Below are positions 1,851 to 50,200 of a DNA stretch of 64,000 nt, in pieces (within the stretch, counting starts at the first letter, position 1; the number at the start of each line of letters is the position of its first letter). The DNA is from Congeria kusceri (lineage: Eukaryota > Mollusca > Bivalvia > Myida > Dreissenidae): the NCBI GenBank assembly GCA_027627225.1, contig CM051032.1:64459137-64523136 (forward strand). The letters are read 5' to 3'. The position numbers and the translations under genes were made by a program. The notes below the pieces were generated by a model. It did not search any database, was not told the DNA's origin, and saw only the letters and a program-made list of their open reading frames with translations.

Positions 1851-2001
1851 GTACGACATGGACAGTCTCATACGGTTTACGTTAACGGTACGGAAAAACT
1901 ACCGTAACGTTCCGTACCATAATTGGGACCACGCCTTTTCTGTGGCGCATGCCATGTTCACCGTACTTCGGACAACCAAACACAAATTCACCGCACAAGA
2001 G
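1851..2001 (+). CDS. PDE exon with YHNWDHAF
   Basis: The exon follows a 'ttatag' acceptor and ends GCA CAA GAG before 'gtatac'. It begins with one base finishing a codon and ends in phase 0. It reads [19 protein letters not shown], then [16 protein letters not shown]. The first His of YHNW is the general acid in the family and the His of WDHAF is a metal ligand. It is the first recognisable exon in the window; I saw no convincing upstream exon in 1-1850. Confidence 0.92.
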
Positions 2002-5000
2002 GTATACATTTATATATTGTTTCTAAACAACATGAGTGTATGTGTTTACAATTCTTGTAAATCGTGCCCGGATTACTGTCGCATTGCATTGCAGTATGCA
2101 TTGCAATAGTTTATAAATACTTGTGCAGTGTGCTTTAAATGCCAAAAAAATACGTTAAGGTTGGCCAAAATTAAAATTAACTTTGTTTGCCATTGCCTAC
2201 CTACCCAACGAAAAGGTCCCTACTCAAAAGTTTTTTCTTTGTTAAATCAAACCAGTTTTTTTTTATTCCAAATATTATATTTTTTCTTTGGGTTAAATTA
2301 AAAAGCTCGCTATTTTTCATTTCGGTCGTTTTCCATTGCGTTAATAAATTAACTGTATCAGCTAAACCCTTGCTTATATAATAGGCCATATAAAAATGCA
2401 ATTCTTATCATGTTTTATCAAACTTGTGAAAGCAACCGGCAGTTTCGTCAGCATTCATTGTCTAATTAAAGATGATTGCTAGCAAGCTCTTGTTATATCA
2501 ACAGACACTTGATTATATTATTGAAAGCAATGTCTGTGTTAAATGCTATACTTTGATGCTAAATGGATCATTCATAAATGTGCCTTTCCCCCCCCCCCCC
2601 CAAAAAAAAATAATGCCGACCTACCTACCCGTTACCAGCAACTTTGGATAGGCAATGGCAAACAAACAATTTTTAAGGTTGGCCTTATGTGATATAACTT
2701 GCTATTGTGGCATTAGCTGTTGCAACGTGAAAATAATTTAGATAACGTACACGTTTTCTTATATACAGAACTATAACACACTCATGTACTTTTACTCCAA
2801 AAATATTTTATGTGCATATAAATGTACAGGAAATATAAACTATTTTTATTTGTGTTCTCTCATATTAAGGACATTTTCACAGATTGGCAAATTGACATGT
2901 TACAAATATTTTGTTCACATATTAAAATAACACCCGTGACACAGAAATATATTCGAAATGATATGTAATTTAATGAAGAAAAAACATTGATTTATATTTG
3001 TACAAAAAAAAAACGTCAGTAACACTGTCCGTTCATTTTTGTGTCGCCTAAAAAGGCGACATATTGGGGTTACTTTTGGCGGCGAAGTTTTTGTGATATT
3101 ACTATGAAACTTTATGAAAGTGTTAGCAGGCATAAAAGGAAGGTCAAGTTCGATTTTCGGCATAATTGATCTTATCGTACTTGAGTAATGCCCCGTTTTT
3201 AAAATCCTTCAAATAAAGGCTTATGCAGACAATAACTTAAAAAGGTTTTATTCAATCTTTATGAAACTTGAGGGAAGTGTTAGTAGGCATAAAAGGAAGG
3301 TCAAGTTCGGGTTTTGGCATAATTGCTATCGTACTTGAGTTATGCCCCGTCAGGCGTCACATACGACTCGCGGAGTTCTATTTTAAAGTTTCAATTCACG
3401 TCGTTTCCAACGCCTTCCAGTGCCTAGCTCTCTTCGTGGCCTGCCTTTGCCATGACCTTGACCACCGAGGGAAAACGAACGCTTTCATGGTGAAGAGTGC
3501 CTCGCCCCTGGCCGCCATATACTCTACGTCCACCATGGAGCACCATCATTTCAACCAGACCGTTACAATCTTACAGGTATTTCCTTATATGTTTGTTTTC
3601 TTACAGTTGCAATTTTAGAGGTTTTTTCATGTTGTTTTTACAGTGGAATCATATGGGTAGTTTGTTATATAGTTTTACAGTACAATGTTGGGAGATTGTT
3701 GTATACTCTTTTGCAGTACATTCTTAGAGGTACTTTCAAAGGTTTTACATGTTATGTTATGCATAGTATATGTACGTTCCAGATAGTTTTCTAGATATGT
3801 TAAGCAATGTCCGTGTATTTTGATACAAATACAGATACTTTAAAGAGTGAAAGTTCATGTGCTGTCAAGATACATTTTCATATGATATGTATGTAAATAT
3901 ACATTCTGTCGACAACGACAACACCTAGAATCTAACAATATGCGATTAAAGCAGTAAATAGAAGGATATTCAAACACTAATTGCAATTAGACATATATAA
4001 TATATAATAAATGGGCATTTATACATTTACATATGCGCGCGATTTCTTACAGAATGAAGGCCATAACATTTTCAAACACCTCTCATCGGAGGATTACAAA
4101 AAGGTGAGTAAATAAAGCTTAACCGACTCTGTCTTGCGTCAAAGATACACGTTATATCCGATGAAGTAAATAAGATGTCATGTCAACGTTGCATTGAAAT
4201 AAAAATCAATATTCAAATATACGCAATGCACAAGCGATTAATTTAGAATATATATTTTTATTAAATTAATTACTTGTATTTTTTATTTTTACACAGAGTA
4301 ACAGACAATCTGTAGAGAGTATTACCAGAACTAGTATCAGTATAGCAACATAAAACATAAACAGTTCCATTTAAATTCTACGAGCTTACGTAGTATGTAG
4401 AGTAATAATTCAGATACATCAATCTGAATACATTTGTTGATACGTATATTGATGCATGAACTGTTCCTTGCACTTTATTAGATGCTTTATGGCATTTGGA
4501 ACTGCATTTTGTTAATATTTTGCAAATATCGGATGTTTATATCTCACATTAATTGTTTCCTGAAAAATATATCTCATAACAAGTGTTCCCTGAAATCTGT
4601 CAGATGCTGAGTGACATTCGAAACTGCATTTTGGCGACGGACTTGGCACTGTTCTTCGGCAACAAGGCAAAGTTGAAGGACATCGCAGACAAGAACGAGT
4701 TACAGTGGAAGGACGATGATCATAGGTAGGTTATTTTCTCTCGGAAGCAATGCCGGTTGTATTTATCATTATTGTAAGCCGTATCTCGAAGCATCCTTTT
4801 CGAAGCATGCCAATTAATTCACATATAGGCTTAGTTATAAAGAAATGTAACTGTTGTGAATGTCAGTTCTTAACTTGATAAACATAGAAATTAATGTCTA
4901 TGGTTATCAAGTTTATTTTCTCAGTATAAGCTTACACATTATAAACGAGTATTATATTTTGAAGTATCTAACACACGTCTATTTCTCCATAAATATTCTA

Positions 5001-8000
5001 TAAAATAGTATGAGTTAGTAAAAGCTGTATTGTAAATACCTAACATTGGATTGTATATTATATGCAATTTATATTATCTCATTTTCTTGTCAGTTAAAAT
5101 CACGTCTAGTTGCTTCTTAAAATACACATTTATGCTTTCCGATCTCCTATTTCACATTATTTAGAGTATGGTTTGCTGACCGTCGTTATCACTAGTGTCT
5201 CTGAGTCACAATAACTGATCCCTGTTGGAAGATACTCCGTATTTATTCTCACAAATCACGTGGTCTATTAGAACCAATATTTTTTACATTCCAAATTCAC
5301 AAAATGTCCAACTAGTATTTGAATCTGGTTGAATGCATTGTCGTGCAGCATTAACAATGTAAGTGGGTGGAATTTTAAATGGGCTATGTCAACGCAAAAT
5401 TGGGTTCCTATTGCACTACATGTATACGCGATATTAGATGATCGAAATGCGCTTTGCTAAGACAAGTACATACAATGACAAATAAATAATATAGTACATA
5501 ATGAGATATTAGATGATCGAAATGCGCTTTGCTAAAACAAGTACATACAATGAAAAATAAATAATATAGTACATAATGAGATATTAGATGATCGAAATGC
5601 GCTTTGCTAAGACAAGTACATACAATGAAAAATAAATAATATAGTACATAATGAGATATTAGATAAAAACGAATCAGCAAAAATGTTTTTAAAAAAGACA
5701 ACCTATTGCGGGTATCGAACTCACGACTTAGTTGCCATGCGAAGAAATTACAGTAGACAGCGCTTTTACCAACTGCGCTGTTCTGCTTGGTAAGGAAGCA
5801 TGTGTAAACTATGGTTATACAAAATTCTCACAATTGTAACGTCAAAATGTAAGCATGAAAAGGGCCAAACAAACAAGACCCAAATTTAAAGTATTTCCAA
5901 TTATATATACCTTATTTTAACCGCTATTATATGCTAGTCTCAATATCTTTATTTCAGTTTGTTTTTTTAAGAAATTGCCCCCTTTCGTTGACATAGTCCC
6001 TTTAACCTGTAAAGGGTCAACATTTTCATATTGGTTTGCAATTGCTTCTGTACATTGTCTCACGGCATTGCAAAGTTTCCTGGATGGATTTTAACTACAA
6101 TGGTTAAAATTTGCATAATGGTTGTCAAATGTTTGGAACTGATTGTTTTTCTGCATTGGGTATTACGTGTTTATTTTCGAACTGAAAACAGAATATACAA
6201 TATAAATATGTGCGCTGTACAAGTGCTACTTTGATTAATAAAGGTCCAATTTCACATAGTTGTTATCTAATGTTTGGAACTGATTGTTTTTGCTGTATTG
6301 CATATTGCGATTTGTAAAACTGCAAGGGTTTATTGTCCAACGGCAAAAATGTGAATAATATTTAGAGCACGTGGTTTGTGACATTGACCTTGTTTTAAAT
6401 CACAAAACTGGGCATCGATGTTTCGATTTCACTTCCCATGTTCGAGGGTATTTATCAGTATAAAACAGAGTTTGATGTTTAAAAATAGGCATTTGTTTGC
6501 AATTTTACTTTGGCTGTTTTGTCAGATCATGTGTCGCTGCATAAAATTATTGATTGATCAATCAAACATCGATGTCCACGCCTTTCGAGTTTTTGTTTTG
6601 TATGGATAATGTTCAGCAGCCTTGACAAATATTTACGCATGTATATTTTATGATATTTTATTTATGTTTAATTATAGTTAATAAAATGTACCGTACCAAT
6701 ATTACCAAATAAGGACAATTTTATTGTCACTTGCCATATTTAAAATGTGTCGTCGTTTATTAAAAAGACATTTTAGATTTAAATATATAACTTTAATACT
6801 GGTAATGATATTATCTTAAGTTCCATTGGATCTATTTCAAATTCGATAATTTCAGGTACACTTTATAGTCCCCAATCCTTTTCCAGAACCAAGAATAGAT
6901 AGATCACAATTTCTATTTCAGAATAATGAACTTTTGCACATTTTAGTCCTTTTGTATAGATATTCTTTAAAGGTCCATAGACACTTAACAATCTCTTGCC
7001 ATATAAACATAGAAACAGTAAACATTTGTTGTCTACCTCACATTTAGGCGCCTGGTTCACGCTATAGTTATGACAGGGTGTGACTTGGTTGCCTCGGCGA
7101 AACCGTGGAAAATGCAGCTGGACACCGTGAAGTATATATTTGAGGAGTTTTATCAGCAGGTAGAATAACCGGAAGTATGCCCTGATCGTGCACGTCTTGT
7201 ACAATGTGTCGTGTAGTGCCTATAACCTTTACCTGTACTATGCTCGTGTGCGTATTAGTGAATGCTGCTCTAGCTGTCACGCATGCCATAGCTGGGATTG
7301 GGGCTGTATGCACCTAAAATGTTGAAGAAATAATTTTCGATTTAGAGTTGTTTATCGGCTCATAAACAACGATCTTCTGGTGCGCAGGAACTCAACAAAC
7401 TATGGCGTTAGTCCAAGAGGATCAATATACGCGCATTTAAGCGACTAAACGTTGTTTAGAAGCCGATAAACAACGATAATGCGAAATTTATTTCGATTCT
7501 AGCTTGATCTGTTAACATATTATGCAATTACAATGCGAACTGTATTTTACAGTTTCGGTACTACTGTTTCGGGTCGTTTATTGGAGATTTTGAAATGGTA
7601 ATTGTGTTCTTTGTATATAGAAAACTCGGCGCGTGTCTTGTTGGAAAATTCGTTTTAGACTGGGATAATGGAAGGTTATTTAAAAATAATATGTCATTTG
7701 TTTAATGTTATTTAATTTATATTTTGTTATTTAAATATTTTGTAAACTTTTTGACACTGTTCCTGCAGTGTATTCTATAAATGGAGAAAAATGTAGTGTT
7801 ACTTCGCCACTATTATAAATAATAGTTTCATTGTTATAAAACGAACGTATATAAGTTTTAAAATTGTGACAAATCTTTTCACAATTTCGTATGTGTATAA
7901 GACGTGTATGCGAAATCTATATGGAATAACGTCTGCAGCTGGTAGGGTTGTTTAGAATACTAACCTAGAAGTAACACGGCATAAACTTGTTCTAACGCAT

Positions 8001-11000
8001 CCTATATTCACATATATTTTATACAACCTTTATATAAATATTGCCTTAAGATTTTATGTGTGTAAATTGTAGAGAGGTTTTTGGTAGTGCATACGTTTGC
8101 TGACATTGGAATTTAAATGGACCAGTTTGGTCCATTTAAAAAGGAATGCATGCGCATTTAACTTGTAGCTATGTTAACCACTACTAAATTCGCACATTCA
8201 TAGCTCATTTGCGCAAGACAAAGTTTTTTTCGATATTATATATCATGTATTATACACTAAAACCAGGTTTCTCCAGGAAAAGCTCAAACGATAAAATTGT
8301 TTTAAAAACGTTCGCGCAAATTGGTTTTTTGAAAGCGTTCACCTCTTATCAATCTGTGTCTAAACTGTCAACTTCCGTGATTTTCTACTATAATTTTGCT
8401 ATGAGAGCAAAGCTTTGTTTTTCATTATTACCGTGCTTATTGTTTGACTTGTGCAACTCTAAATATGTTTTTAGACACAGATTGTCATTCCCATTGTTTC
8501 ATGTAGTGTATGTATGTTGTGTTTTGTGCACAAAAAAGAGCTCTATTTCTTGTAGTCTTCCTCTCTGTCTGTTGCAATTCTACGTGGTGGTTAACTCGAC
8601 AAGAAAAAGATATAATAGTTCTTGATGGACATATTAACATATATGGTATACTAGAGAGTAACCTCTGTTGCTAACCGTAAATTAACTTAACATGGATATC
8701 TATTTATGCATTACATCTACAAGTAGTTGTAACGTTGATTCTGATTTTATATTTCTTTCTGCCTGAACACTCTTAAATAGTTCTATAACAATTTTACTGA
8801 TTTACTTGCATAATAAAAGGCATGCGTTTTGATAACGCATCTCCTTGTCGTTTACCTTTAATTAAAAAAAGGTTTCCTCAATGTCATTCTCTCTTTAGAC
8901 GCTAGTAACAACAAATATAGCATGTTTACACTAGACTTGAGGGTTTGGTTGCTAGTACCATACGTGTTCGTATGTCCATGACGTCAGTACCGCATGTGTC
9001 GAACGCTTTTTCAATGTCGATAACTCGTCTGTGCATTTGTTTCATTCCCACAGAATGCTAGTAATGAGCCTTTGCATGACAGGCTGTGATCTTTGTGCAA
9101 TGTACAAACCCTGGTCCACTCAGCTTGACCTTGTGTTTGTCATCATGGAGGAGTTCTGGCAACAGGTATAACAACACGACCACCGCCTTTGATAACAGCA
9201 GCAGCAACAACATCGTTGCGCGATTTTACCTTGTACAGCTTGTGGTGTTGTGAATTTCGTCCGATAAAATGTCAACATATACAATTATTTTTTATCTAAT
9301 TAAAGTCGAAGTGTCCATAATAATAATAGTTCATGTACAAAAATGTACATACGTCTATATTTAAATGAATACTAAGATATATAGATTATATGAAATTAAA
9401 ATAATACATGTACCTACGTCCACATTTTTTATGAATTTTAAGATAGTTCGAGTATATATGTACGTATAAAAGTAAATGTGGATTAAAATCGATGTATATT
9501 TGCACGGATCTATGGTCTTAATGTACAACCGGTTTGGATCGTCCATCATGACCGCCAAGACGACTATTTTGTCATTTGCTCAACGTGAGAAATGTGAACT
9601 TTATGTTTTTAGTATAAATATTGTGTACACATCAGTATTCGATATTGTAAATATTTACTAACCAAACTATACCATACTAAACTAAGTAATTCTGTGATAC
9701 TATGTTTGATAGGCATATGACTCCATCCAAGTGGTACTGTGTAATGTGTGCCTACTAAGCATAGGCATGAACTGCAGGCAAACATAGAATGACATGGCCA
9801 AACCCCAACAAGATACTATAATCTTACAATTTGTATGCCCCTACTTTAGAGGGGGGGGGGAGCTTTAGTTTTGTCCTTTTCCGTCCGTCAGTATTTGGTC
9901 CTTTTAGTTCGTCCGTCAGATTTGTGTGTCGCCCATAACTGATAGAGTGATTAAACTTTATAAGCATGTTCATCGGCATCGGGACTTGTGCACCTGGCTA
10001 TTTGTGTGCAGTTTTTTCCGACATCGGTGGAGTTATGGCCCTTTGTTGTAAAAAATGACATTTTTGGACTTATGTCGCGCGTAACTTAAAAAGTATTATT
10101 GCTAGAGTGACGAAACTTTATTAACATATTAATCAGCATGTGAGCTGATGCACCTTGGTATTTTTGTGCAGCGAAGTGATGGCCCTTTTTCATGAAAATA
10201 TTTGTGGCCATAATATCTTGGTCAAGTTCGATAATCAGCCAAAGCGCCCTTGGAATTGTGGAGTTACGGCTCTTGAAATATCTAAAATTGGCCATTTTTA
10301 GCCGTTTCCGCTCTCTAACTCAAACAGTTTTCATCAAATCCTCACCAAACTTCATGATAATGTTTGTAATAATAATATCTAGGTCAAGTTCGATAATCAA
10401 CCAAATCGCCCCAGGAATTGTGGATTTATGGCCCTTGAACTATCTCAAAGTAGCCTTTTTTTTCGTGTCCGCTCTCTGAGACTAACAGTGTTCATCCATT
10501 CTTCTCCAAACGTCATGACAATGTTTGTAATAATAATATCTAGGTCAGGTTCAATAATCAGCCAAATTGCACCAGGAAGTTTGGGTTATTGCCCTTGAAT
10601 TATCTGAAATTGGCCTTTTTATCGGTTTTCCTCTCTAAGTCCAACAGTTTTCATCCGATCTTCACCAAACTTCCAGTCAAATCAACCCAGGAATTGTGGA
10701 GTTACTGTCCTTGAATTATCTGAAATTTGCCTTTTTAGCGGTTTCCGCTCTCTCTAAGTCCAACACTGTTTATTCAATCTTCACCAAACTTCATGAACAT
10801 GTTTGTGGGTATACTATCTTGGCCAGGTTTAATAATCCCAGGAATTGTGGAGTTATGGCCCATGATTATCTAAAATTAGCCTTTTAGCTATTTTAACCTA
10901 GAGGGGGGCATAATTGTTTTACTTTTACAGCTCTTGTTCAAATGGGCAATTTCTTTGTTAACTAGATTTTACCGTTTCGTCTAGCACCAGCACCGCTTAC

Positions 11001-14000
11001 TACAGCACTTGCATACTTACACAGTTGCTACTTATGACCATTCCCAATCCACACATCCCAACCATACTTTGACCTTGACCTAATTTGGACTTAAAATAAT
11101 TCAAATTGGCTGTCCAGCACTAACCGGGGGGCATGAGTGTTTATCGAACACAGTGTCTGTTGAACTTGTGTCGCGTGTTACTCAAAAAGTTTTACTGCTA
11201 GAGTTATGAAACTTTATATACATTTTAAGCAGCATGTAACTTGTGCACCTGGGTATTTTTCCGCCATCACTGGAGTTATGCCCCTTTTTTTAGCAAATAA
11301 TACATTTTTGGATTTTTGTCGCGTGTAACTCAAAACGTTTAACTGCTAGACTAATGAAACTTTATAAACATGTTCATCAGCATGTGAACTTGTGCACCTG
11401 GTTATTTTGGTGCATTTTTTCGACATCAGTTTTGTGACAACCAGCGGAATGCGGGGGCATTCGTGTATTACGGACATATTTCTAGTTAGAAGAGGAGCAA
11501 TGTTATTTTTGAATGGGTCAACTGAATTTCATAATAACTCTTATTTTGAAATATATGATTTCTTTCCGTAATACAAAAGCAACAATATCATCATAATATG
11601 TAAACCACGAATTTGCACCACACCACCATGTGTGTAATGTAAGTTGGTGTAGAATACAGTCTTAACAACTACATTGATGTCATTACTAAATGTCGTAAGT
11701 GAATATTTAATCATGTGCTTATAAGGCTTAACTCCACCAATGCATGTCAAAAGTTTGATCATTTCATGTAACTTCCAAACATAGGGATATTTACATTCAT
11801 CTTGCATTGAAACATTGTCCGTGCTGTCTTGAACATCCATCAAAACATTTTCCGTGTTGCCTTGAACATCCATTGAAACATAATTGTCCGTGTTGTCTTG
11901 AACATCCATCGAAACATTGTCCCTTTTGCCTTGAAAATCCATCAAAACATTGTCCGTGTTGCCTTGAACATCCATTGAAACATTGTCCGTGTTGTCTTCA
12001 ACATCCATTGAAACATTGTCCATGTTGTCTTGAACATCATTCAAACATTGTCCGTGCTGTCTTGAACATCATTCAAACATTGTCCGTGTTGTCTTGAACA
12101 TATTCAAATATTGTCCGTGTTGTCTTGAACATCCATTCAAACATTGTCCGTTCTGTCTTGAACATCCATTCAAACAGTGTCCGTGTTGTCTTGAACATCC
12201 ATTGAAACATTCTCCGTGTTGTCTTGAACATCATTCAAACATTGTCTCTGCTGTCTTGCACGACATTCAAACATTGTCCGTGCTGTCTTGAACATCCATT
12301 GAAACATTGTCAGTGTTGTCTTGAACATCCATTGAAACATTGTCCGTGTTGTCTTGAACATCCATTGAAACATTGTCCGTGTTATCATGAACATCCATTG
12401 ATACATTGTCCCTGTTGTCTTGAACATCATTGAAACATTGTCCGTGCTGTCCTGAACATCCGCATCGTCTGATTTGTATCTGGTTAATTGTATTTGCTCT
12501 CAATTGTTGTCTACCATATTACCGGTAATCAATGTTCATAAGTCTGATGATATACGCACATCACACTGTAGTTTTACGTTGATTTTATTGCGACAATACT
12601 AGGTTGAACATATATAAAAAGTTTATTTTTTCATCAATATTTTTATTACAAATGACGCCAACAGACAAAACCGCATTTATGAGTCTACAAAACGACAAAT
12701 GTTTGAAGATTTTCGTTTGGCATTATTTGAATAAAGCACTAGGGCAACGTTTTGATCGTAAAATTACTGAACAAATGACGTTGTGACATATATGATATCA
12801 ATAAGCGGTACAGAAGCACTAAGGTTATTAATTTGCAACTTATAGGGAGACGAGGAAAAAGCAAAGGGTCTGACGCCAATGCCGATGATGGATCGAGAAA
12901 AGAAGCACGAGCTACCTCAGCTTGAGGTATTATGTTTGTGTTTAAAGACGTTCGCAACAAAAAGAAAATAATTGGGTCAATTTCTCCTTTTGCCTCATTT
13001 TTTCTTTATTGTATATAGGTTATAATATACTAATTTCATCTCTAATGTCCATTCAAATAAATATTTTTAATAGTAAAAGTTCATAAAGCATATATAATAA
13101 AATACACTTATGCAATGTATTTCCAAACAAATTTAGTTCAAAAATGATCCATTCAATATCTCCATTCTATTGATACGTTGTTTATGTGTGTTAAAACGAA
13201 ACAGGAAACAAGCTTCACATGTACCCTATTTAAAATCCAATATTTGCCAAACAAGTTCGGTGAGCCATTCTTTTTATTAATGTTTTGGTGTAAGTATACG
13301 TTGATGCATATATGTGCGAACTGTTAAGAAAATCTGTCGTTTGGAACAAAATATGCATTAATATATGCTTATGTTAATCCCTTCGCCACTGTGCAATTAT
13401 TCTTGTTTTACTTAACTTTAAGTCTACATCAAATACATTTTATCAGTCCAATATTAAAAGTCTTAAGTAAATGCAAAATCAACAAATTCCGTCAGAATAA
13501 TTGTTAATTGCCTCAGCAAACCTTTGTCAGTATGTGCATAATTTTAGAACTAAACCAACAATGCTTTATCAGCATAACTTTAAGTGCACGTCCACGAAGC
13601 ATATTTTGAACTCAAACTTTAAAACTAAGCCATCACTGCTTTATCAGCATAGTATTAAGTGTACGTCAACGAAGTTTTTATTACAGTCGAACTTAAAAAC
13701 TGAGTCAGCAATGCTTTGTTAATATAACTTTAACACACAGTGTATTGGGTGAAAGTCTTCAAACGTGTATAATAATTTATTAATCAACTTGACAATATTA
13801 CGCACAATATCAGTGAAAATGTACGTCTTATATCCGTCAGCACGAGTAAATATTTTAACGATCAACTGTTCCTGTATTAATTCAACTGTTTGGGATCTAA
13901 GCATTGTGATTGGCTAAAACGAGTGCCTGTATGCGATTTCAATGCCTATATGAGATTTAGCGCTTTTGATTGGTCAGTTGAACTGTTCCTATATGAAAAT

Positions 14001-17000
14001 GAAAATATTGATGTTTTTCCAGAAACAATTTTCAGTTTTAACAACTAATAATAATTAAGTTGATTAATAAAATCTTTATTAAATAAGTGATTTAATTCAG
14101 GCACTGTTATTTGTCCTCGGTCAGCAGTATTGGCATTCGTCCGTAGGTCTCATGCCAATACATGTGACCTCGGAAAAATAACAGTGCCTTTATGAAATCA
14201 TTTATTTAATAACATTATAATATTGACGGTTCATAGCGTAGGCTTAATTGTTTCGTTATTAACGTGTTATCCTGGTTCCCCGCAGGTTGGCTTCCTCGTC
14301 GGTATTTGTCTGCCTTGCTACGATTTGATGGCGCAAGTATTGCCGGAAACCAAGCCGATGAAAGATGGTGCATTGTAAGTATTATCATAAAGACTTCGTT
14401 TTGGCACTACTAGAACCATTTTTATTTTCAATCAAAAACTTAAGGCGAAATATATATTCTGTAGACTAGTTTGTACAGAGAGTAATAACCAATTTGATTA
14501 CCGAATCCATGTGCCGTACATGTTTATTTTAAATTCGATATCCGTAGTGATACGAAAAGGTCCGTCTTTTTTTACAACAGTGTGCGTCATAAAAAGGACT
14601 AGTACAAAGGTATGTGAAACCCGCAATTTATTTGAGGCATGTCGTGGGAAACCGGGCTTAATGCCTGTGCGTAAAGTGTCATCCCGGTTTGGTCTGTGCA
14701 GTCCGACACTTTCCGCTCTTATGGTATTTTCTGTTTCGATGTAGTCTCTTCTAAAAATAAATCCAATGTAGGCGGAAAGTGCCGTCCCGGACGACACTTT
14801 ACGCACATGCATTAAGGCCGGGGTTCCCACGACACGCCTCATTAGTTAAACACGTGTACAAACTATATACTAGTAATTGTCTCAGGTAAAGAAGAAAATA
14901 ATACAAAAATTGCGTGAAAAAAACAGTGCGATATCGTCTGTTTTGCTCATTCATGTGTAAGCGACATATTCTTAAGAAAGAATATTTTTGTCAAATGGCA
15001 ATGTTACTCGATCCATGCATTAATGACGTTCTTACAATATAAAGGAGAACTAGTGTCATACAGACATATTTGTTGTGCGTGACAAATGTTAAACCAAATG
15101 TAAGACAATGCATCATTCTTCATATGTTGCATGATACGTACGTAAAGGCCTTGTCACACTGTGGGGAATTTGAGCTACGAGTTCTGGCGAGTTGTAACTC
15201 GCCACAACTCGCCTGGTGTCGTGTAAATCTGAAACACGTGTCGTTCTTTGTCGCAGCGATGTCTTCTTATCTGCTTATGTTGCCAGAACTCGCCAAGTAG
15301 CGGCGAGAATTTTAAACGGTTTAAAATTCTCGTCGCTTCTCGGCGACCTTTTATTCTCGTCCACGTGTCGAAGACATGTCGAAGGAATCTCGCGCACTCT
15401 CAAACACACTCGAACACATTCCGGAGACGAGTTTGCTGCTAGTTAGGAGACTTGTCTACGATATCTGCTCTTCCGTTTCTCGTAAAATGTCGTCAGAAAC
15501 TCTTGCTCATGTTCTCACAAGTCGTACAGACTCGTTCACACTCGTACATTCTCGAAGACAAGTCTTCGATTGTCGAAAATATATCGTACGCATATCTCGG
15601 CTGAACTCGTGATAAAATGTGATTATCGTACTTGTGTCGTGTCAATGTCGTGTCAAGGTTGAAGAAAACTCGAACAAATGTCGTCTTGAAACAATTCCGC
15701 GACCAACTCGTCCACTTTACGGCGAGTTATAACTGTGCAGGACTCGTACAAAACTCGAATCTCAAAGTCGCCACAGTGTTATAGGGCTTTAACTCGTGGC
15801 CACGAGATACCAAGGCGTGGCCAAGAGATACTAAGTCGTGGCCACGAGTTACGTCACTCGTGGCCACGACTTAATAACTCGTGGCCATGACTTAATAACT
15901 CGTGGCCACGAGATACTAAGTCGTTGCCACGACTTAATAACTCGTGACCACGAGATAAATTATTTTTCTCACGTGTCACGTCTATGCAGACTTCCCGAAA
16001 ACCGTCGGTCCGACGGACATGACCGGCAAATTTTGAGTGGGTCCGACATTTATTATGCCCCCCTTCGAAGAAGTGGGGGTATCTTGCTTTGCACGTGTCC
16101 GTCGGTCGGCAGTCGGTCGGTCGGTCGGTAGGTCTGTCCGTAGACCATTTCGTTTCCGCACGATATCTTGAGAACGCTTTGACCTACGATCATGAAAGTT
16201 GGTACGCTGGTTACTTGGGTGGAAAGAAAGAACCCTATAAATTTTGAGATCAACAGGTCAAAGGTCAAGGTCACCGTTGCTAAAAATAGAAAAATGGTTT
16301 CCCCTCAATGACTTGAGAACGCATTGAGATATTTTAATGAAACTTTATACATAGATACCTTACATCGAGACCTTGCTTGGGATTGCATATGCATTGGGTG
16401 GGATCAACGTCAAGGTCACCCTTACTAAAAATAGGAAAACGGTTTCTGCTCAATAACTTGAGAACACATCGAGATATTTTAAAGAAACTTCATACATAGA
16501 TACCATATATCGAGACCTCGCTTGGGATTGCATATCTAAACAAATATCTTAATAATTGCATATTTACAACTTGGCTGCAAGTCGGGGGCATACATGTTTT
16601 ACAAACATCTCTTGTTTACTAAGAATCGGACCGACCGTCCGACAACTTTTTAAAGACTTATTCCTATAATTTATTATGTAACTGTATAAAAAATACCTAA
16701 TATCGGAGCAATTGAATACAGCTCCGCTATATCGTGATCCGCACTTTGCGAATCGGCCGTGGATCTGATCATGATTTTTTTCATGCTCTTTATTGATTAT
16801 CTTATTACCCCAACTGCCGTAAATAAATCCCGTTTGGTCCGAATTTTCGTGCCTTACTCGCTTTTTTTTCATTTACACTCGTGATATGCGACAAACAATA
16901 ACACGACCCGCGCAACATCAACGTGTAACAGTTTGACGTCACAAGCTTACTTTGCGCAACGTCCGTTCACTGCAGGCGCTTTAATTAGCAGCCTTTAATT

Positions 17001-18349
17001 TCAAACAGCTGTGGGTCGTGAAAAACGTACTGCACGCAGTCCACGTGTTCACCGTCACTGTAAGTTACAGATCAATACTAATCTATACGACAACAACGTT
17101 ATCGATACCGCGTAACTGCTTTCACGTTATAGAGGTAATGGTGTCTACAAAAGATCTAGACTATGACACATACAATTTGCACATCCTTCGCGATTTTATA
17201 GACACCTAAATGTTTTGCACAAAAATAAAGATTTCACAGTTCTTTGCGCTACAATTTTTTTTATATCACGGTCATTACTGTAACGTCCACCCTTTTCCAT
17301 GCGGATGACGTGACGTTGTGACTGTAGCATAATTTTCGACGGAATGTTTTTTTTTTATCTAACCACGGGTTTTACATGAACAACATGTGCATACGAAATG
17401 TAAATAGAATTTGTGTTAAGGTCTCGTGAACAGTAAAATTCGGATAGGAGTTTTGGATTTGAGTTGTCATATCGTAGTTTGATATTAATTAAATGTATTG
17501 TATATTGTATGTTATCTGTGTTAACAACAATTAAAAAGGTGAGCAAGTTACGTTTGCTGTTTGAGATAGCGAAAACACACTAGTGTATACATGTATAATG
17601 TTTACTATAGACTATATATACATGAAGGATTTTTCATCCGGCAATATTTATTTCGGTCCGGCATGTTTTGACTGGTTGTCGGACCAAATGTCTGACACTT
17701 TTTTGAGCTTTCGGGAAGTCTGGTCTATGCCACCGTAGAAATGAATGATCTTATTTCAAGATATTTCCTCGAAAGGCTTATGTATCTAGTGAATTTGTTC
17801 AGCCAAATAACTGGATTTCGGATTGGCTAAGCCAGCGTCCGTACGAGTTACGTAACTCATGGCCATGAGATACCAAGTTCGTGACCATGAGATACTAAGT
17901 CGTGGCCACGACTTGATAACATCGTGGCCGCGAAATTAAATATTTTTTCCCACATGTCACGTCTATGCCACCGTATCTTCTTCTTAACCCTGTTATTGTT
18001 TTTAATCATCTATTGTTACAGAGCAAACATGAAGAAATGGAAGCAGCTTGCGGAGAAGTCTCGAGAGGAAGTCGAGGAGGAGCTGCGAGTGGACATCTCC
18101 CAGCGGCGCCACAGTCTCATCCAGTACGGCGAAAATCTGGACGACGAGACTTCGACGGACTCAGAGAAGCCAGACGACATATCGGAAGAGGGCGACGTGC
18201 CGGCCGACAGTTCCGAGGACGCCGACGAAGGCGAGACGGACGCCAGTCGCGGAAGTCGTCTGGAAGAAGAGATGGCAGCGGCGGCCGCTGATGGGGAGGA
18301 CAGTCAAAGCGGCATCAGCGACGCCGCTGAACACATTGAGATCATTTAA
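1851..18349 (+). CDS. 3',5'-cyclic nucleotide phosphodiesterase, PDE11-like (3' part of gene)
   Basis: This gene should hydrolyse cAMP and/or cGMP in the cytosol. Exons are 1851-2001, 3421-3576, 4053-4103, 4604-4725, then either 7048-7159 or 9054-9165, then 12846-12926, 14286-14374 and 18022-18349. They join in phase to about 362 residues ending in TAA. Motifs in order: YHNWDHAF (general-acid His and first metal His), CHDLDHRG (metal His/Asp), [20 protein letters not shown] (metal Asp), PMMDRE, VGF. Strings such as [19 protein letters not shown]-type and [13 protein letters not shown] resemble PDE11 most, then PDE5/6; PDE2 and PDE10 fit less well. The upstream GAF domains and start lie outside the window. 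Odd points are an alternative exon pair inside the catalytic domain and Glu at the position of the invariant Gln. Family assignment is firm; the subfamily is by-eye. Confidence 0.93.
2155..2686. mobile_element. TIR element with TTTGTTTGCC ends, copy 1
   Basis: Ends AAGGTTGGCC...TTTGTTTGCCATTGCCTACC and GGATAGGCAATGGCAAACAA...AAGGTTGGCCTTA are inverted. A C14-A10 tract sits inside. It fills much of the 2002-3420 PDE intron; the rest of that intron carries a short duplicated repeat at about 3105-3355. Confidence 0.65.
3421..3576 (+). CDS. PDE exon with HDLDHRG metal site
   Basis: This 52-codon exon lies between 'ttccag' and 'gtattt' and is phase 0 at both ends. It carries [10 protein letters not shown] (the metal-binding His-Asp pair), then [19 protein letters not shown] and VTILQ. 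The coding stretch is visibly richer in GC than the flanking intron. Confidence 0.95.
4053..4103 (+). CDS. PDE micro-exon NEGHNIF
   Basis: A 17-codon, phase 0-0 exon between 'cttacag' and 'gtgagt' reading [17 protein letters not shown]. It aligns directly after VTILQ, as NEGHNIF-type sequence does in animal PDEs. It is too short to stand out as an open frame. Confidence 0.93.
4604..4725 (+). CDS. PDE exon ILATDLAL
   Basis: The exon follows 'ctgtcag' and ends CAT AG before 'gtaggt', leaving two bases (AG) to be completed downstream. It encodes 40 codons including [18 protein letters not shown] and ends WKDDDH. The AG overhang becomes Arg with either of the two alternative downstream exons, because one starts with G and the other with A. 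Confidence 0.94.
5430..5670 (+). repeat. 75-bp tandem repeat, 3 units
   Basis: GATATTAGATGATCGAAATG recurs at 5430, 5505 and 5580 with near-identical intervening sequence. A single copy of the same unit is present at about 21850, showing local amplification within this copy of the dispersed repeat. Confidence 0.85.
5701..5795 (-). ncRNA. tRNA-like SINE relic
   Basis: Minus-strand CAGCGCAGTTGGTAAAAGCGC resembles an A box and GAGTTCGATACCC a B box. A degenerate relative in the same sequence context lies at about 21960-22040, so both are copies of one dispersed repeat (about 5430-6005 and 21845-22280) sharing the ending CGTTGACATAGTCCCTTTAA. Confidence 0.45.
7048..7159 (+). CDS. PDE alternative exon, version A
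   Basis: The exon is 112 bp, between 'catttag' and a 'gtagaa' donor. It reads [14 protein letters not shown], then [20 protein letters not shown], then FYQQ. The Asp of MTGCDL is the conserved metal ligand of the catalytic site. Entry needs two upstream bases and exit is phase 0. Exon 9054-9165 has the same length, phases and motif skeleton, so this is one member of a duplicated exon pair. It is the more conventional version by eye, but nothing here shows which is used more. Confidence 0.93.
7326..7494. mobile_element. TTGTTTATCGGCT foldback element, copy 1
   Basis: GAAATAA-TTTTCGATTTAGAGTTGTTT-ATCGGCT is mirrored by AGCCGATAAACAACG...GCGAAATTTATTTC. It lies in the intron between the two alternative PDE exons. 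The rest of 7160-9053 has only a short palindrome at 8112-8140. Confidence 0.7.
8112..8140. repeat. Perfect 13-bp palindrome
   Basis: TTTAAATGGACCA - GTT - TGGTCCATTTAAA. Confidence 0.9.
9054..9165 (+). CDS. PDE alternative exon, version B (mutually exclusive with A)
   Basis: The exon is 112 bp, between 'cccacag' and 'gtataa'. It reads [14 protein letters not shown], then [20 protein letters not shown], then FWQQ. It keeps MTGCDL, KPW, QLD, EEF and the closing QQ of version A while most other positions differ, as expected of an old exon duplication kept under selection. Because 112 is not a multiple of three and both versions share phases, joining A to B, or skipping both, shifts the frame and soon meets a stop. 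Only one can be included in a functional mRNA. Confidence 0.9.
9840..11480 (+). repeat. Degenerate tandem dispersed repeat (mollusc-type)
   Basis: Units of roughly 150-190 bp repeat phrases such as CATCTTCACCAAACTTCATG, GGAATTGTGGAGTTATGGCC and CTTGTGCACCTGG. It occupies the large PDE intron 9166-12845. Open frames here are broken and short. Confidence 0.7.
11807..12465. repeat. 33-bp minisatellite, about 20 units
   Basis: Unit CATTGTCCGTGTTGTCTTGA-ACATCCATTGAAA, 33 bp, with a few 30-32-bp variants. It is open on both strands over long stretches ([11 protein letters not shown] on minus, [11 protein letters not shown] on plus) only because the unit is a multiple of three; the odd-length units break each frame. 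In the PDE intron 9166-12845. Confidence 0.9.
12846..12926 (+). CDS. PDE exon [15 protein letters not shown]
   Basis: A 27-codon, phase 0-0 exon between 'cttatag' and 'gtatta', reading [20 protein letters not shown], then HELPQLE. The last codon GAG (Glu) sits where known PDEs have the Gln that hydrogen-bonds the purine (pattern P-x-x-Q-x-G-F; here P-Q-L-E-V-G-F across the next junction). The intron falls directly after this codon. Confidence 0.94.
14077..14211. repeat. 135-bp hairpin (foldback element)
   Basis: TTATTAAATAAGTGATTTAA-TTCAGGCACTGTTATTT pairs with AAATAACAGTGCCTTTATGA-AATCATTTATTTAATAA, with GTCCTCGGTCA/TGACCTCGG inside. It lies about 75 bp before PDE exon 14286-14374; the rest of intron 12927-14285 shows a threefold repeat of about 80 bp with GCTTTATCAGCATA at 13540-13730. 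Confidence 0.75.
14286..14374 (+). CDS. PDE exon [13 protein letters not shown]
   Basis: The exon follows 'ccgcag' and ends GGT GCA TT before 'gtaagt' (29 codons plus two bases). It reads [20 protein letters not shown], then ETKPMKDGA. The Phe of VGF corresponds to the purine-stacking Phe of the PDE family. The TT overhang plus A of the last exon gives Leu. Confidence 0.94.
14633..14841 (+). mobile_element. GAGGCG foldback MITE, copy 2
   Basis: Arms TGAGGCATGTCGTGGG and CACGACACGCCTCA; lacks part of one inner arm. Lies in the last PDE intron. Confidence 0.85.
15144..15790. mobile_element. 645-bp foldback element rich in ACTCG
   Basis: Ends AAGGCCTTGTCACACTGTGG and CCACAGTGTTATAGGGCTTT are imperfect inverted repeats. 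The interior has GAATTTTAAACGGTTTAAAATTC-type palindromes and many ACTCG/CGAGT words. No credible frame. In the last PDE intron. Confidence 0.65.
15790..15958. repeat. Tandem self-complementary CTCGTGGCCACGAG units, array 1
   Basis: Alternating CTCGTGGCCACGAG and AAGTCGTGGCCACGACTT palindromes separated by ATA/TAATA, each unit its own reverse complement. The array is followed by TTATTTTTCTCACGTGTCAC-GTCTATGC. Confidence 0.9.
16046..16620. repeat. Dispersed repeat with TCGG run and 'cttgagaacgc' units
   Basis: It begins TATGCCCCCCTTCGAAGAAG, has a (TCGG)n stretch near 16105-16130 and two or three units of ACTTGAGAACGCATTGAGAT type about 170 bp apart, and ends CGGGGGCATA. The next 16620-17840 is without a gene; 17285-17330 resembles 58975-59030. 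Confidence 0.6.
17840..17970. repeat. CTCGTGGCCACGAG palindrome array 2, abutting the PDE last exon
   Basis: Degenerate units (ACTCATGGCCATGAG, AAGTCGTGGCCACGACTT) followed by CCCACATGTCACGTCTATGC, the same border as array 1. It ends about 50 bp before the acceptor of the terminal PDE exon. Confidence 0.8.
18022..18349 (+). CDS. PDE terminal exon with acidic tail
   Basis: The exon follows 'tgttacag' and ends in TAA. It opens with [12 protein letters not shown], the end of the catalytic fold (the W matches PDE5/11), followed by about 85 residues rich in Glu, Asp and Ser. The tail includes SQRRHSLIQ, a good match to the protein kinase A consensus (R-R-x-S), and ends HIEII. GC content is high compared with the adjoining intron. 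Other frames stay open by composition, but the ANMKKW frame is the one matching the family and the upstream phase. Confidence 0.9.
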
Positions 18350-18426
18350 AACGTCCGAAATGTTTGCGTAGGAAATGTTTAGCTACATCTATGGTCGTGG
18401 GTTGTTGAACAAGAGTCGATATACAC

Positions 18427-28699: not shown

Positions 28700-30960
28700 A
28701 GAGTAGATACGTCAGGTGTATTCAGAGGACTTCTGTTATTTTAACTCAGAAAATTCTACTTTCCCTGAACTTGATAAACCTATATCTGTCGAGGAAGTTA
28801 TTTTGCAATAAAGCATTTGAAACGAAACAAATCACCGGGTAGCGACTGTATTTTAAACGAATATTTTTTAGAATGCAGCGATATTCTATCTAACCATTTG
28901 TGTGATTTATTTAACGGTATATTTTTATCTGGTTATTTTCCGGATAAATGGACAGAAGGAGTAATTATTCCCCTGCATAAGAAGGGCCCTGTTAACGATG
29001 TAAATAACTACAGAGGGATTACACTAGTCAGTTGTTTCTCAAAAGTATTTACCACTATTTTGAATAAGCGCATCGTAACATTTTGTAATGAAAATAACAG
29101 TATCTCGGATGCGCAGTTTGGTTTTAGGAAGGGTTGCTCCACAGTGGATACTATTTATATATTGATGTCAATTGTGCAAAATTATTTAAATCAAAATAAA
29201 CGCTTATATGTAATATACGTGGACATGTTAAAATGCTATGATAGTAGCTATCGTAATGCGCTATGGTTAAAATTATATAAGTCGGGTATACAGGGTAAAT
29301 TGCTTAGAATAGTGAAAGATATGTATACACATGTTAAATCATGCGTTAAATCATGTACATCATACTCAGATTATTTTAATTATGCAGTAGGCGTAAGACA
29401 AGGGGAGGTAATGTCGCCGATGCTGTTTTCTTTGTTTGTTGAGGACTTGGAACTTTACCTTCAAGATAGCATTAACTCTGGTTTAAATCTTGATGAAATT
29501 GTGTTGATTTTACTATTATTTGCCGATGACATGGCTATTTTAGGCAAAACACCGGAAGAAATTAAATCGCATTTAGATAAATTATATTTATATTGTAATT
29601 CTTGGGGTCTAAATGTTAACACCACAAAAACAAAAATAATGGTTTTTAGAAAGAGAGGGGGGTTAAAACGAGGTGAGAAATGGACATACAATGGCAACGA
29701 ATTTGAAGTAGTTGATAGTTTTAACTATCTAGGTACAGTAATAAGCTATACTGGGAGTTTTAAACTGAACCAGGAACATTTAGTTGGTAAAGCCCTTAAG
29801 GCAATGAATACTTTATTGTATAAATGCAAGGAATTTGACATAAAACCAAAATTATTTTGCCAGTTATTTTACTCTTTCGTAGGTTCTATATTGAATTATA
29901 CATCTGAAATATGGGGTTTCATAAAATCAAACGATATAGAACGTATTCATTTGAAATTTTGTAAAAGATTGCTACATGTTAGGATAAACACATGCAATGT
30001 TGCTGTATATGGAGAATTAGGTAGATATCCTTTGTATATAAACAGGTTTGTGAAAATTATTAAGTATTGGTTTAAAATTCTTGGCAGTAAAAATATCATC
30101 GTCCAGGTTGTTTATAAACAAGCTCTGAGTGATTGTTATAAAGGTTATACAAACTGGGTATCGAATGTTAGAAAGTTGTTAAATGATTATGGTTTTAGTT
30201 TTGTATTTGATAATCCCAATTCTGTACAAAGTAGCAGTTTTATTAATGAATTCAAATGTAGACTGGTTGACAATTTTAAACAAGACTGGTACGGTAAAAT
30301 TAGCAACAGCTCTGTGTTATATATGTATAAACACGTTAAAACTACTTTAGAGTATGAAGCATACTTAGATTTACTTCCAAGACGTTTGCGCTTATTTTTT
30401 GTCCGACTAAGGGTTTCAGTACATCCTTTAAGAATACAAACTGGCAGATACTCTAGAAATAACATAACAAGGAATCAACGTTATTGTTTGTGTTGTAATG
30501 ATATGGACATAGAAGATGAATATCATTTTATTTGCGTATGCAGTTGTTACACCGTACTAAGGAAGAAATACATTAACCGTATTTTATATGTTAATCCATC
30601 TGTATATAAATTCCATCAGTTATTAGCTTCATGTGACAAATCCATCTTATTAAATGTATGTAAATACATCAAAGAAGCATTAGTTATTAGAAATTCGATC
30701 ATAAATGAAACTGTGTAGTTAATTGTCCTTACCACCTTTGCTTTCTTTGTTTGTTGTTTATTTTGTTGTTTTGTGTTGCTTGTTTTTTGTTGTAATATTG
30801 CATTAGTTGACCGATTGTGTGTGTCTGACCTTGTTTGGTTATATACATTTTTGCTCGTTCTACCTAATAACGTGACAGGAAAGAATATTTGTATTAATGT
30901 ATGAAGACGATGTACTATTGTATAAGTCTGAATAAACTGTCTGTCTGTCTGTCTGTCTGT
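28700..30960 (+). mobile_element. 5'-truncated LINE (non-LTR retrotransposon) nested in the LTR element
   Basis: The LINE holds a reverse transcriptase frame, a short 3' UTR and ends AATAAA followed by a (CTGT)n run of about six units at 30937-30960, a tail typical of some LINE groups. No endonuclease domain is seen upstream, so the copy is 5'-truncated near 28700; the exact left junction is uncertain. It separates the protease remnant from the env region of the host element. Confidence 0.75.
28817..30718 (+). CDS. LINE reverse transcriptase ORF (633 aa, 5'-truncated)
   Basis: The protein would copy LINE RNA at a nicked target site. Visible blocks: RNKSPGSDCILNEYFL (RT motif 0/1), VIIPLHKKG and NNYRGITL, QFGFRKGCSTVD, IYVDMLKCYDS (first catalytic Asp), GVRQGEVMSPMLFSLF, and LFADDMAIL (catalytic FADD). 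The C terminus has a Cys/His cluster CLCCNDMDIEDEYHFICVC. The frame is open for 633 codons. Upstream, PELDKPISVEEVI continues the domain in another frame, so a one-base deletion near 28806 breaks the natural N terminus. Clade is not certain; it resembles jockey/L2-type LINEs. Confidence 0.9.
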   Translation: MKRNKSPGSDCILNEYFLECSDILSNHLCDLFNGIFLSGYFPDKWTEGVIIPLHKKGPVNDVNNYRGITLVSCFSKVFTTILNKRIVTFCNENNSISDAQFGFRKGCSTVDTIYILMSIVQNYLNQNKRLYVIYVDMLKCYDSSYRNALWLKLYKSGIQGKLLRIVKDMYTHVKSCVKSCTSYSDYFNYAVGVRQGEVMSPMLFSLFVEDLELYLQDSINSGLNLDEIVLILLLFADDMAILGKTPEEIKSHLDKLYLYCNSWGLNVNTTKTKIMVFRKRGGLKRGEKWTYNGNEFEVVDSFNYLGTVISYTGSFKLNQEHLVGKALKAMNTLLYKCKEFDIKPKLFCQLFYSFVGSILNYTSEIWGFIKSNDIERIHLKFCKRLLHVRINTCNVAVYGELGRYPLYINRFVKIIKYWFKILGSKNIIVQVVYKQALSDCYKGYTNWVSNVRKLLNDYGFSFVFDNPNSVQSSSFINEFKCRLVDNFKQDWYGKISNSSVLYMYKHVKTTLEYEAYLDLLPRRLRLFFVRLRVSVHPLRIQTGRYSRNNITRNQRYCLCCNDMDIEDEYHFICVCSCYTVLRKKYINRILYVNPSVYKFHQLLASCDKSILLNVCKYIKEALVIRNSIINETV

Positions 30961-47200: not shown

Positions 47201-50200
47201 ATATTTGACCTTCGACCTTTTAGTGTGACCTTGACATTATACAAAGGGACCTGGTTCTTGCGCGCAACACACCCACACACCATGCTTAGCACTTCGGCCA
47301 AGTTAATTTAAAATCCTTCCCTGCTGTACAAAATTATGCTTCAGACAGTATTTATGGCTTAAATTCTTATATTTGACCTTTAAGTGTGACCTTGACCTTG
47401 GACCTAGGGACATGGTTCTTGCGTGCGACACACCGTCTCACCATGCTCAACACTTGTGCCAAGTTATTTGAAATTCCTTCCATGCAAGACAAAATTATGC
47501 TCCGGACAGGGTCTATGGCTTAAATTCTTATATTTGACCTTTGACCTTTAATTGTGACCTTGGCCTTGGACATAGGGACCTGGTTCTTGCGCGCGACACA
47601 CCGTCTTACCATGCTCAACACTTGTGTAAGTTATTTGAAATTCCTTCCATGCTGGACAAAATTATGCTAGGGATAGAAGGCTTAAATTCTTATATTTGAC
47701 CTCTGACCTTTAAGTGTGACCTTGACCTTGGACCTAGTGACCTGGTTCCTGCGCGCGAAACACTGTCTCATTGTGCTTAACATTTCTGCTAAGTTCTTTG
47801 AAAATCCTCCAAAGCTCGACAAAGTTATTGTCCGGATAAGAATCCGAACATACCGGTACGTACATACATACACACGTAAATATGTACACACTTACATTAT
47901 TTGTACATACATACGTACCCACTGACAGGGTAAACTCTATATGCCTCCCCCCCCATCATTGATGGTGGGGGCATAACAAAAATAAGTGACCCTCGCTGAT
48001 GTTATACATAACGTGTCCACCTTGCGATTGGAAGATCGCATGCTTGTTCCCTACTTCGGAGCATTTGAATGATCTTTCTCAAAAGACACCAAGTACTAGT
48101 TGTACCCAGAAAATGCACTCAAAACTGTTTCAATAATCTTTAGTTTATGACACAATTAAGCTTAAATAAATGTGTTTAAAAAAAAGAAAAGATTTCAAGC
48201 TTTCTAGTAGATAACACTGCAGCTCATCACACAGTGATCTGTTAAATACAGTACATTGAATAAACTGTGTTCTAACATGATACTGATTTTTCTATAGACA
48301 AAGAACAAAATCATCGTTGTTAAACTACCCAACAAACAACGCATAAAGTAGTCCCGATTCTGAGCGGAGCATATTAACCGTTATCGAGCCTATACCGAGA
48401 TATCTAGGCGTTTCAAAAACTCACTCATAAAGCTGTTCCCCAACTATCCCGGTTTAGCCTGTAAGCCAATACACAAGAGGAATACACAGTTCGGCATCTC
48501 TAATCTGATAACAGCTACTTATTCGGAAGTGTTGGGAGACTGTATCTTTATTGTTTATATGATACCAGGGCAAAATCAGTTAAAATTAACAAATTGTTGC
48601 TAAAATCTGCTGTTGTTTCCATTGAGTGTTGCAAGATGGCATAAGGCAGACATGTTAGGCTTTGCCTTCAATATGTTTTTAACTGTCATATTGTGTCATA
48701 AATCTGACATCAATTCATTTTCGTTTAATCTTTACATACTAATGAAAAGATCTTTTAATGTGTTTTTTTTCAATAAAATAATAGTTTGAATATGTCATTA
48801 TCATCAGAAGAAATGTAATTATTGCCTTTTTTTTTTTCAAACTAATTCCCATGTCTGATAAATAAATACAATATATATACTAAATTTAATAAATTTATAC
48901 CAGCGTCAACCTTGTTTAATTTTCTTTCAGAAAAGTATGTGGTACAACTAAATACCAATAACTATTCATCAGTTACAGTGATTTACAGCAGATGACCACT
49001 TGAAACCTAGCTTTACTTGTAACACTCTGATTTATCTGGCTCTGCAGCTGCTGATAGGCAAAGGTGTATTCGGCCGGTTAAGAGTTAAAATGAAGTTCTC
49101 ATTACAATTCCAACAATATTTGACGATCAAGTTAGAATCGACATAATTTTCGCATTATCGTTGTTTATCGTTTATCGGCTAATTAACAACTCTTCGTCAT
49201 TCTGATGCATTGATATTTAAACCATAATTAAATTCCTATTCATAAGAACGTCAAATCTTTTTATGGCCGATAAACAATGATAATCAAACATTATTTCTTA
49301 AATAAATCGCAATTGGTCATGGAGAGACAAGAAGGTCATATAGATATTTCGGGACTTCAACTTACTGGATCATAACTGCAAAGAAAAAATAACAAGATAA
49401 AAAGATAACACCAATTTTAATTACAATTAACTGCATAAATGCACTATAATAATATTATTATGGAGCTTTTTTATCAGTAACAACAGAAAAATATTGCTAT
49501 CCTATTACGGTTATGTAACAAACAATTATAAATAAATGATGCTAATTTGTTTTTTCATACAAGTAATTTGTCTTTTCTTTTTCAACTTGAACACAACCAT
49601 GCTTACCCTGCCACCCAATGAAGTACAAGGAATGTTTTGGCTTCCCTCCGATCAACCCTATGCAGCACTCCTGGGCCATGAGATTTTTAACACAATCCGC
49701 GTAAATTGGATTAAAATGTTCCCCACCCAGTCTGACTGGTATGAGGATTATCACAGATCGGTTCCACGGGTTTGTAAATTCAAAGGGAGTGCTTGATCCA
49801 CTGTCCGGACTTTGGACACCCGGCAACTCGCTGGAACTCGTGAGGTTCCTGTGTCGTGTATTGCACAAATGTTCAATATCACCTTCGTAAACTAAAAAAT
49901 AAAAAAATAAAAATGTGCAAACCATATTTATGAGAAAACATAGCATGTGTAATATGATCACCATCATGATTAAAAAGCAAAAAATTTTCATTTCATTTGC
50001 ATAACCATTTTGTTTGGCTTGGTGATATATTTGTTGGTCACTTTTAATTTTGCATTCGCATTCACATAATCTGCTATTCAATAAACTTTTATGACAAACC
50101 ACAAATCATCAGGTTTTTTTTAAGTTTAAGAAAACAATTCAAAACCATTCCAGTTGGGTCTATTCAACAACAGACATAATAAACATGTTCGCACTAACTC

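Follow-up and report, generated by a model that had tools for sequence, protein, structure and literature searches.

Organisation of the phosphodiesterase gene

The stretch of the Congeria kusceri genome analysed here (the window; 64,000 nucleotides of contig CM051032.1, C9:64459137-64523136, in a genome of 1.55 Gb) includes the catalytic end of a phosphodiesterase (PDE) gene. This part of the gene consists of nine exons on the plus strand between window positions 1851 and 18350, two of which, exons A and B, are adjacent homologous exons. The closest protein found, Dreissena polymorpha P0124, matches at 96% across the catalytic region, and matches to the proteins of relatives extend back about 48 kb upstream of the window. 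The exons are as follows.

1851..2001, plus strand: exon a, start of the PDEase domain with the YHNWDH histidines; open frame, TATAG/.../GTATAC, matches D. polymorpha P0124
3421..3576, plus strand: exon b, HDLDHRG metal site
4053..4103, plus strand: exon c, from the gene model and the match to relatives
4604..4725, plus strand: exon d, terminates in the split codon AG/
7048..7159, plus strand: alternative exon A, ancestral type, 112 nucleotides (nt); metal Asp codon 7082-7084
7160..9053, plus strand: A-B intron, 1894 nt
9054..9165, plus strand: alternative exon B, spiralian type, 112 nt; metal Asp codon 9088-9090
12846..12926, plus strand: exon f, 81 nt; final codon GAG (12924-12926) gives Glu at the invariant-Gln position
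14286..14374, plus strand: exon g, from the gene model and the match to relatives
18022..18350, plus strand: exon h, C-terminal tail and stop

The class I PDE metal and catalytic motifs (YHNWDH, HDLDH and MTGCD) are present in the translation, aligned to PDE10A, and are kept whether exon A or exon B is used. We take their residues to be the metal ligands H, H, D and D and the catalytic H.

Exons A and B

A sequence-only reading of the window had proposed that two 112-bp exons with the same entry and exit phases are used alternatively. The coordinates, equal lengths, phases and splice sites (TTTAG/G...CAG/GTAGAA for exon A, CACAG/A...CAG/GTATAA for exon B) are all as claimed, and the motifs said to be shared, MTGCDL, KPW, QLD, EEF and QQ, are present. 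The statement that the two differ at most other positions holds for the 20 residues outside these motifs, 15 of which differ, but not overall, as 22 of the 37 residues in each peptide are identical (59%).

At the DNA level 60/112 nucleotides are identical. Codon positions 1 and 2 are conserved (23/37 and 24/37, together 47/74), position 3 is near chance (13/38), and the flanking introns have no clear in-register similarity past the exon ends. On these grounds the pair is read as an old duplication retained for its protein. A profile of the exon was built from 175 different homolog segments, excluding both window sequences and any identical to them, and run against 114 kb in six frames. It matched exons A and B with E about 4e-21 each; the next best match had E = 3. 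The joined isoforms score nearly equally as PDEase_I (269.8 bits with B, 268.4 bits with A). The exon A peptide is identical to D. polymorpha and Mya isoforms (37/37), and the exon B peptide shares 33/37 residues with Mercenaria.

Probable exclusive use of exon A or exon B

Both d-A-f and d-B-f have an open frame and an intact PDEase domain. Joining d-A-B-f leads to a stop 11 residues into B, and d-f, with neither exon, stops 8 residues into f, which confirms that inclusion of both or neither shifts the frame. The same pair is seen in Mytilus edulis, where isoform models assigned to one contig by its length (126317657) swap exactly the A/B block: X19 (P0130) is A-type, X9 (P0143) and X23 (P0141) are B-type, and a 35-residue block is exchanged between identical flanks. 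Apart from this block, these isoforms also differ in discrete stretches of the N-terminus, of the GAF-A region and, for X23, of a linker. In the Bulinus model P0011 an A-like and then a B-like copy are run together with intron-like sequence between them; hence, this gastropod shares the exon order. Further A-type (P0127, 82% coding) and B-type sequences (P0131, 83%; P0147, 72%; P0151, 74%) lie on contigs too short for introns and, given these coding fractions, probably represent spliced sequence. With the frame logic, the conservation of both types and the Mytilus models in agreement, mutually exclusive splicing, as proposed, is very likely.

Two mechanisms that might enforce exclusivity were considered. 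Steric block was ruled out, as the A-B intron (1894 nt) is too long. RNA pairing was set aside because the repeats spanning exon A were not clearly distinct from the shuffle control. The best ungapped pairing of the introns around A scored 14 (30 shuffles: mean 12.0, maximum 18, 1/30 as high), and that around B scored 11, with 30/30 shuffles as high. Of 21 inverted repeats listed, the longest (45-nt arms, 7327-7494) is a local hairpin, and those able to pair across exon A are 5665-5694/8300-8329 (77%) and 5072-5091/8598-8617 (90%).

Age and distribution of the two types

A tree of the segment was calculated from 63 rows, namely 59 of the 222 listed homologs (spread over species), window exons A and B, and two Bulinus copies; it covers 37 columns only and its bootstrap had not settled. 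The B-type rows form one group (n=30, support 99/98) that includes bivalves, gastropods, annelids, nemerteans and rotifers. Outside it lie the A-type rows, among them those of cnidarians, Trichoplax, arthropods, nematodes, echinoderms, amphioxus, cephalopods, Lingula and Owenia. This grouping, together with the presence of both types in one gene only in molluscs (the window, Mytilus and Bulinus), indicates from the sequences at hand that the duplication is older than the bivalve-gastropod split. It is probably also older than the spiralian radiation.

Family placement

Among solved structures, PDE10A is the closest to isoform B (299 bits), followed by a PDE5/6 chimera (241) and PDE5 (237). In a tree of 37 catalytic domains, from which the exon A/B columns were excluded, the gene groups with 18 rows, from Trichoplax to amphioxus, labelled pde-5-like from database names and matches (support 92/91). 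This group is sister to PDE10A plus invertebrate PDE10-like sequences and apart from PDE5/11. By sequence, the gene is assigned to the pde-5-like family, sister to PDE10A. PDE5, which had served as the earlier frame of reference, is a poor one, and identity with PDE5 was rejected on both the bit scores and the tree position. No vertebrate pde-5-like protein was among the matches listed, though no search was aimed at vertebrates.

GAF domains precede the PDEase domain, with GAF-B and PDEase in the joined model and upstream exons matching the GAF-A part of P0124. The gene therefore has the GAF plus PDEase architecture, the fold and the metal site of the pde-5-like and PDE10A phosphodiesterases, but differs in having an alternative pocket exon and Glu for the invariant Gln.

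Pocket residues that differ between A and B

Positions are counted from the metal Asp (D). Numbering follows PMC3069055 for PDE9 (Glu406, Tyr424, Gln453) and PMC12982385 for PDE10A (Ile692, Tyr693, Phe696, Gln726, Phe729). By spacing, Glu406 of PDE9 is D+4 and Tyr424 is D+22, and Tyr693 of PDE10A, a selectivity-pocket residue, is D+19. Since the spacing fits both numberings, the alignment puts two functional places in this exon: one held by the residue that stabilises the base-holding Gln, the other lining the selectivity pocket. This upholds the proposal that the metal Asp and positions lining the pocket lie within the segment. In the predicted structures of Mytilus X19 and X23, which are of modest overall confidence (mean pLDDT 66.1 and 68.8, respectively), the exon is modelled as a helix-loop-helix in both.

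The scaffold residues MT, D, L, KPW, Q and EF are common to A and B. The residues at D+4, D+14, D+19 and D+23 are Ser, Thr, Phe and Tyr in exon A of C. kusceri, and Met, Leu, Met and Trp in exon B. Residues were counted in 27 B rows and in two sets of 13 A rows, one spiralian and the other not (rows of Solemya, Adineta steineri, Patella, Asterias, Apostichopus, Acipenser, Homarus and Trichonephila, and duplicates, were omitted), with the following result for spiralian A and B.

D+4: Ser 9, Met 3, Asn 1 in A (n=13); Met 27/27 in B
D+5: Ala/Thr 12/13 in A; Tyr/Phe 26/27 in B
D+14: Thr 13/13 in A; Leu/Val/Ile 27/27 in B
D+19: Phe/Tyr 12/13 in A; Met 27/27 in B
D+23: Tyr 13/13 in A; Trp 27/27 in B

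In the full 30-row B group, Met at D+4, Leu/Val/Ile at D+14, Met at D+19 and Trp at D+23 each occur in 29/30 rows.

Glutamate in place of the invariant glutamine

Alignment to PDE10A showed that the residue equivalent to Gln726 is Glu (codon 12924-12926), a departure from the invariant Gln of class I PDEs. As it is encoded by exon f, it is present in both the A and B isoforms. Of the 222 listed homologs, near-duplicates and other PDE families among them, 167 carry Gln at this position, 53 carry Glu and 2 have a gap. The rows with Glu that bear a name come from bivalves, gastropods, Lingula and two annelids (Lamellibrachia and Paralvinella). Gln is found in cephalopods, two land-snail proteins (P0020 and P0026), nemerteans, rotifers, Owenia, Ridgeia and the non-spiralian rows.

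Exon f itself occurs in two versions among the models of pearl oyster (Pinctada P0132), an alvinellid (Paralvinella P0004), an oyster (Crassostrea virginica P0154) and a cockroach (P0205). Gln-type and Glu-type copies lie in tandem in P0132 and P0004, and P0154 has a Gln-type copy where Ostrea has Glu. In C. kusceri a second, Gln-type exon f was not found in the 114 kb around the gene, where there is one copy, with Glu.

Other duplicated exons in the gene and genome

Two further exon pairs lie in the same gene upstream of the window. The first provides two alternative starts of GAF-B, of 155 nt (C9:64445297-64445451) and 131 nt (C9:64447701-64447831); both lengths are 2 mod 3, so that use of both or neither breaks the frame. 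Both copies are carried by the Biomphalaria models P0176 and P0177 and the Nucella model P0161. A tree of the GAF-B segment (30 columns) gave no resolution, and the age of this pair is therefore judged from the two-copy gene models. The second pair consists of two 51-nt in-frame GAF-A exons (C9:64431443-64431493 and C9:64433371-64433421). These exons are both present in D. polymorpha P0124 and in Mytilus X9, while X23 has one of them and X19 none; hence, they are classed, from the models, as cassettes rather than exclusive exons.

Elsewhere in the genome, copies were judged from the Pfam search and from 13 other PDE loci that were scanned, some of them fetched in part. Several partial matches were obtained, and two copies were seen only in a PDE9 gene on C10, whose best solved relative is PDE9A. 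This gene has two in-frame 35-codon copies of the homologous catalytic exon 1.65 kb apart (L010:141-245 and L010:1892-1996). The first copy resembles PDE9-like rows at up to 33/35 residues (P0319), with 32/35 in the named fish rows and 28-29/35 in beetle rows, and the second is 34/35 identical to Mactra P0266. The C10 pair seems to have arisen independently, by the same kind of duplication. The other PDE9 gene, on C7, showed one copy.

Proposed function and alternatives

A spliced choice within the active site of a GAF-containing pde-5-like phosphodiesterase is the best explanation of these data, and we consider it likely to be correct. Exon d would join either A or B, each of which would supply the metal Asp, the following loop and the next helix. 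In a transcript with both or neither, translation would end after no more than about twelve further codons, and nonsense-mediated decay would presumably remove it. In PDE9, Glu406 at the D+4 place holds the invariant Gln453 (PMC3069055); because that Gln is Glu here, Ser at D+4 in A could form a hydrogen bond with it and Met in B could not. The likeliest outcome would be two enzymes that respond differently to inhibitors and that are unlike in turnover or in their preference for cAMP or cGMP, with cell type or state selecting between them, probably through splicing factors. A functional difference between the A and B pockets is somewhat favoured.

Several observations weigh against this interpretation or parts of it. 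The case for exclusivity is built on genomic sequence and on the gene models of other species, rather than on host-species transcripts, and the isoforms of Mytilus and of other species come from gene models in databases. No exclusivity-enforcing RNA pairing was found in the introns around A or B. The genome-wide Pfam search, with 40 matches, included exon B (9043-9183) and omitted exon A. Two-type genes were confined to molluscs; annelids, nemerteans and rotifers each showed one type only, and the Patella segment is intermediate between the types and falls outside the B group. Met at D+4 in 3/13 A rows (two Haliotis and Bulinus A) means that this position does not separate the types everywhere. 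In PDE9, E406A changed the cGMP/cAMP ratio only from 337 to 280, with cAMP kcat down about 8-fold, and the authors conclude that the Gln matters for binding and not for cAMP/cGMP discrimination (PMC3069055). This disfavours the simple reading in which D+4 alone sets preference.

The alternative that survives best is that one isoform is weak or dead and acts as a nucleotide sensor or a dominant negative in GAF dimers. The replacement of the invariant Gln by Glu is in line with this, as engineered PDE9 Q453E lost about 50-fold (cGMP) and 5-fold (cAMP) in kcat/KM, the ratio falling from 337 to 29 (PMC3069055). However, the Glu lies in exon f and is common to both isoforms, both of which keep the metal and catalytic residues, and this alternative is considered unlikely.

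If the pair instead served as a poison-exon style switch, inclusion of both or neither would make a decaying mRNA and set the enzyme level, the difference between isoforms being secondary. A length of 112 nt, which disrupts the frame whether both exons or neither are used and soon leads to a stop, would suit such a switch, but the switch would have no need of the pocket residues that are near-fixed within each type, and it is accordingly thought very improbable. Little credit is likewise given to one copy being a relic or a rarely used exon, which would leave effectively one enzyme. For most species the database has a single type, although its clustering at 90% identity would mask a second isoform, and the evidence base holds no host-species transcripts; yet the frame, the splice sites and the scaffold residues are all preserved in both copies, whose third codon positions agree at near chance, each type is conserved across many species, and the Mytilus isoform models use both. 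Duplication in the assembly, or insertion of another gene or a pseudogene into the intron, would fit the repeats in the introns, but has a negligible chance, as the A/B exon is the only duplicated one at the catalytic end, the two copies share 59% protein identity, their introns do not match, and the same order occurs in Bulinus.

More tentatively, and with the odds against it, the spliced choice within the active site may be part of a splice-programmable PDE. The A/B pocket choice, the GAF-B start choice and the GAF-A cassettes would together let splicing alter both sensing and destruction of the nucleotide, and Glu, together with D+4 and D+19, would give the enzyme a preference for the base that differs from those of the PDEs characterised so far.

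The determinant of cAMP versus cGMP specificity in PDEs (the glutamine switch) is disputed, and two pockets on one otherwise identical protein would offer a test with matched isoforms, in which a natural Gln-to-Glu change accompanies two evolutionarily kept pockets. The findings suggest that spiralian animals diversify cyclic-nucleotide signalling by splicing.

Comparison with known systems

The a and e exons of COQ2 are likewise two adjacent, mutually exclusive, tandem-duplicated exons, and the e-form is reported as required for rhodoquinone synthesis (PMC12403961). That enzyme differs in serving quinone biosynthesis, with the choice tied to the product, whereas the PDE is a signalling enzyme with a putative functional difference. 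Oyster AOX is also a mollusc enzyme with a duplicated exon; both versions of its exon 10 are expressed, their choice is stress-dependent and novel residues occur around functional sites (PMC5589949). It was called the first mollusc case with a stress-adaptive variant, but there the pair is an alternative 3' exon of a mitochondrial oxidase. The PDE gene would add a signalling enzyme to these catalytic switches made by tandem exons.

The A/B pair is of the same general kind as the tandem duplicated exon substitutions of human and fly, in which homologous alternative exons keep important residues and are mostly ancient (PMC9741552). The terms 'PDE' and 'phosphodiesterase' are absent from the main text of that paper. 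Among the literature matches listed, which comprised titles and abstract openings, with subscription journals mostly outside the coverage, none described alternative exons within the catalytic domain of a PDE.

Other features of the window

The intron between exons B and f contains about 20 copies of a 33-bp tandem repeat (11805-12461). Beyond the PDE gene, two other open reading frames stand out.

28817-30718: 633-amino-acid open reading frame, recognised by eye and presumed to be a non-LTR retrotransposon reverse transcriptase by resemblance
49542-50102, minus strand: open reading frame, part of which resembles, by its motif, an ATG4-type cysteine protease

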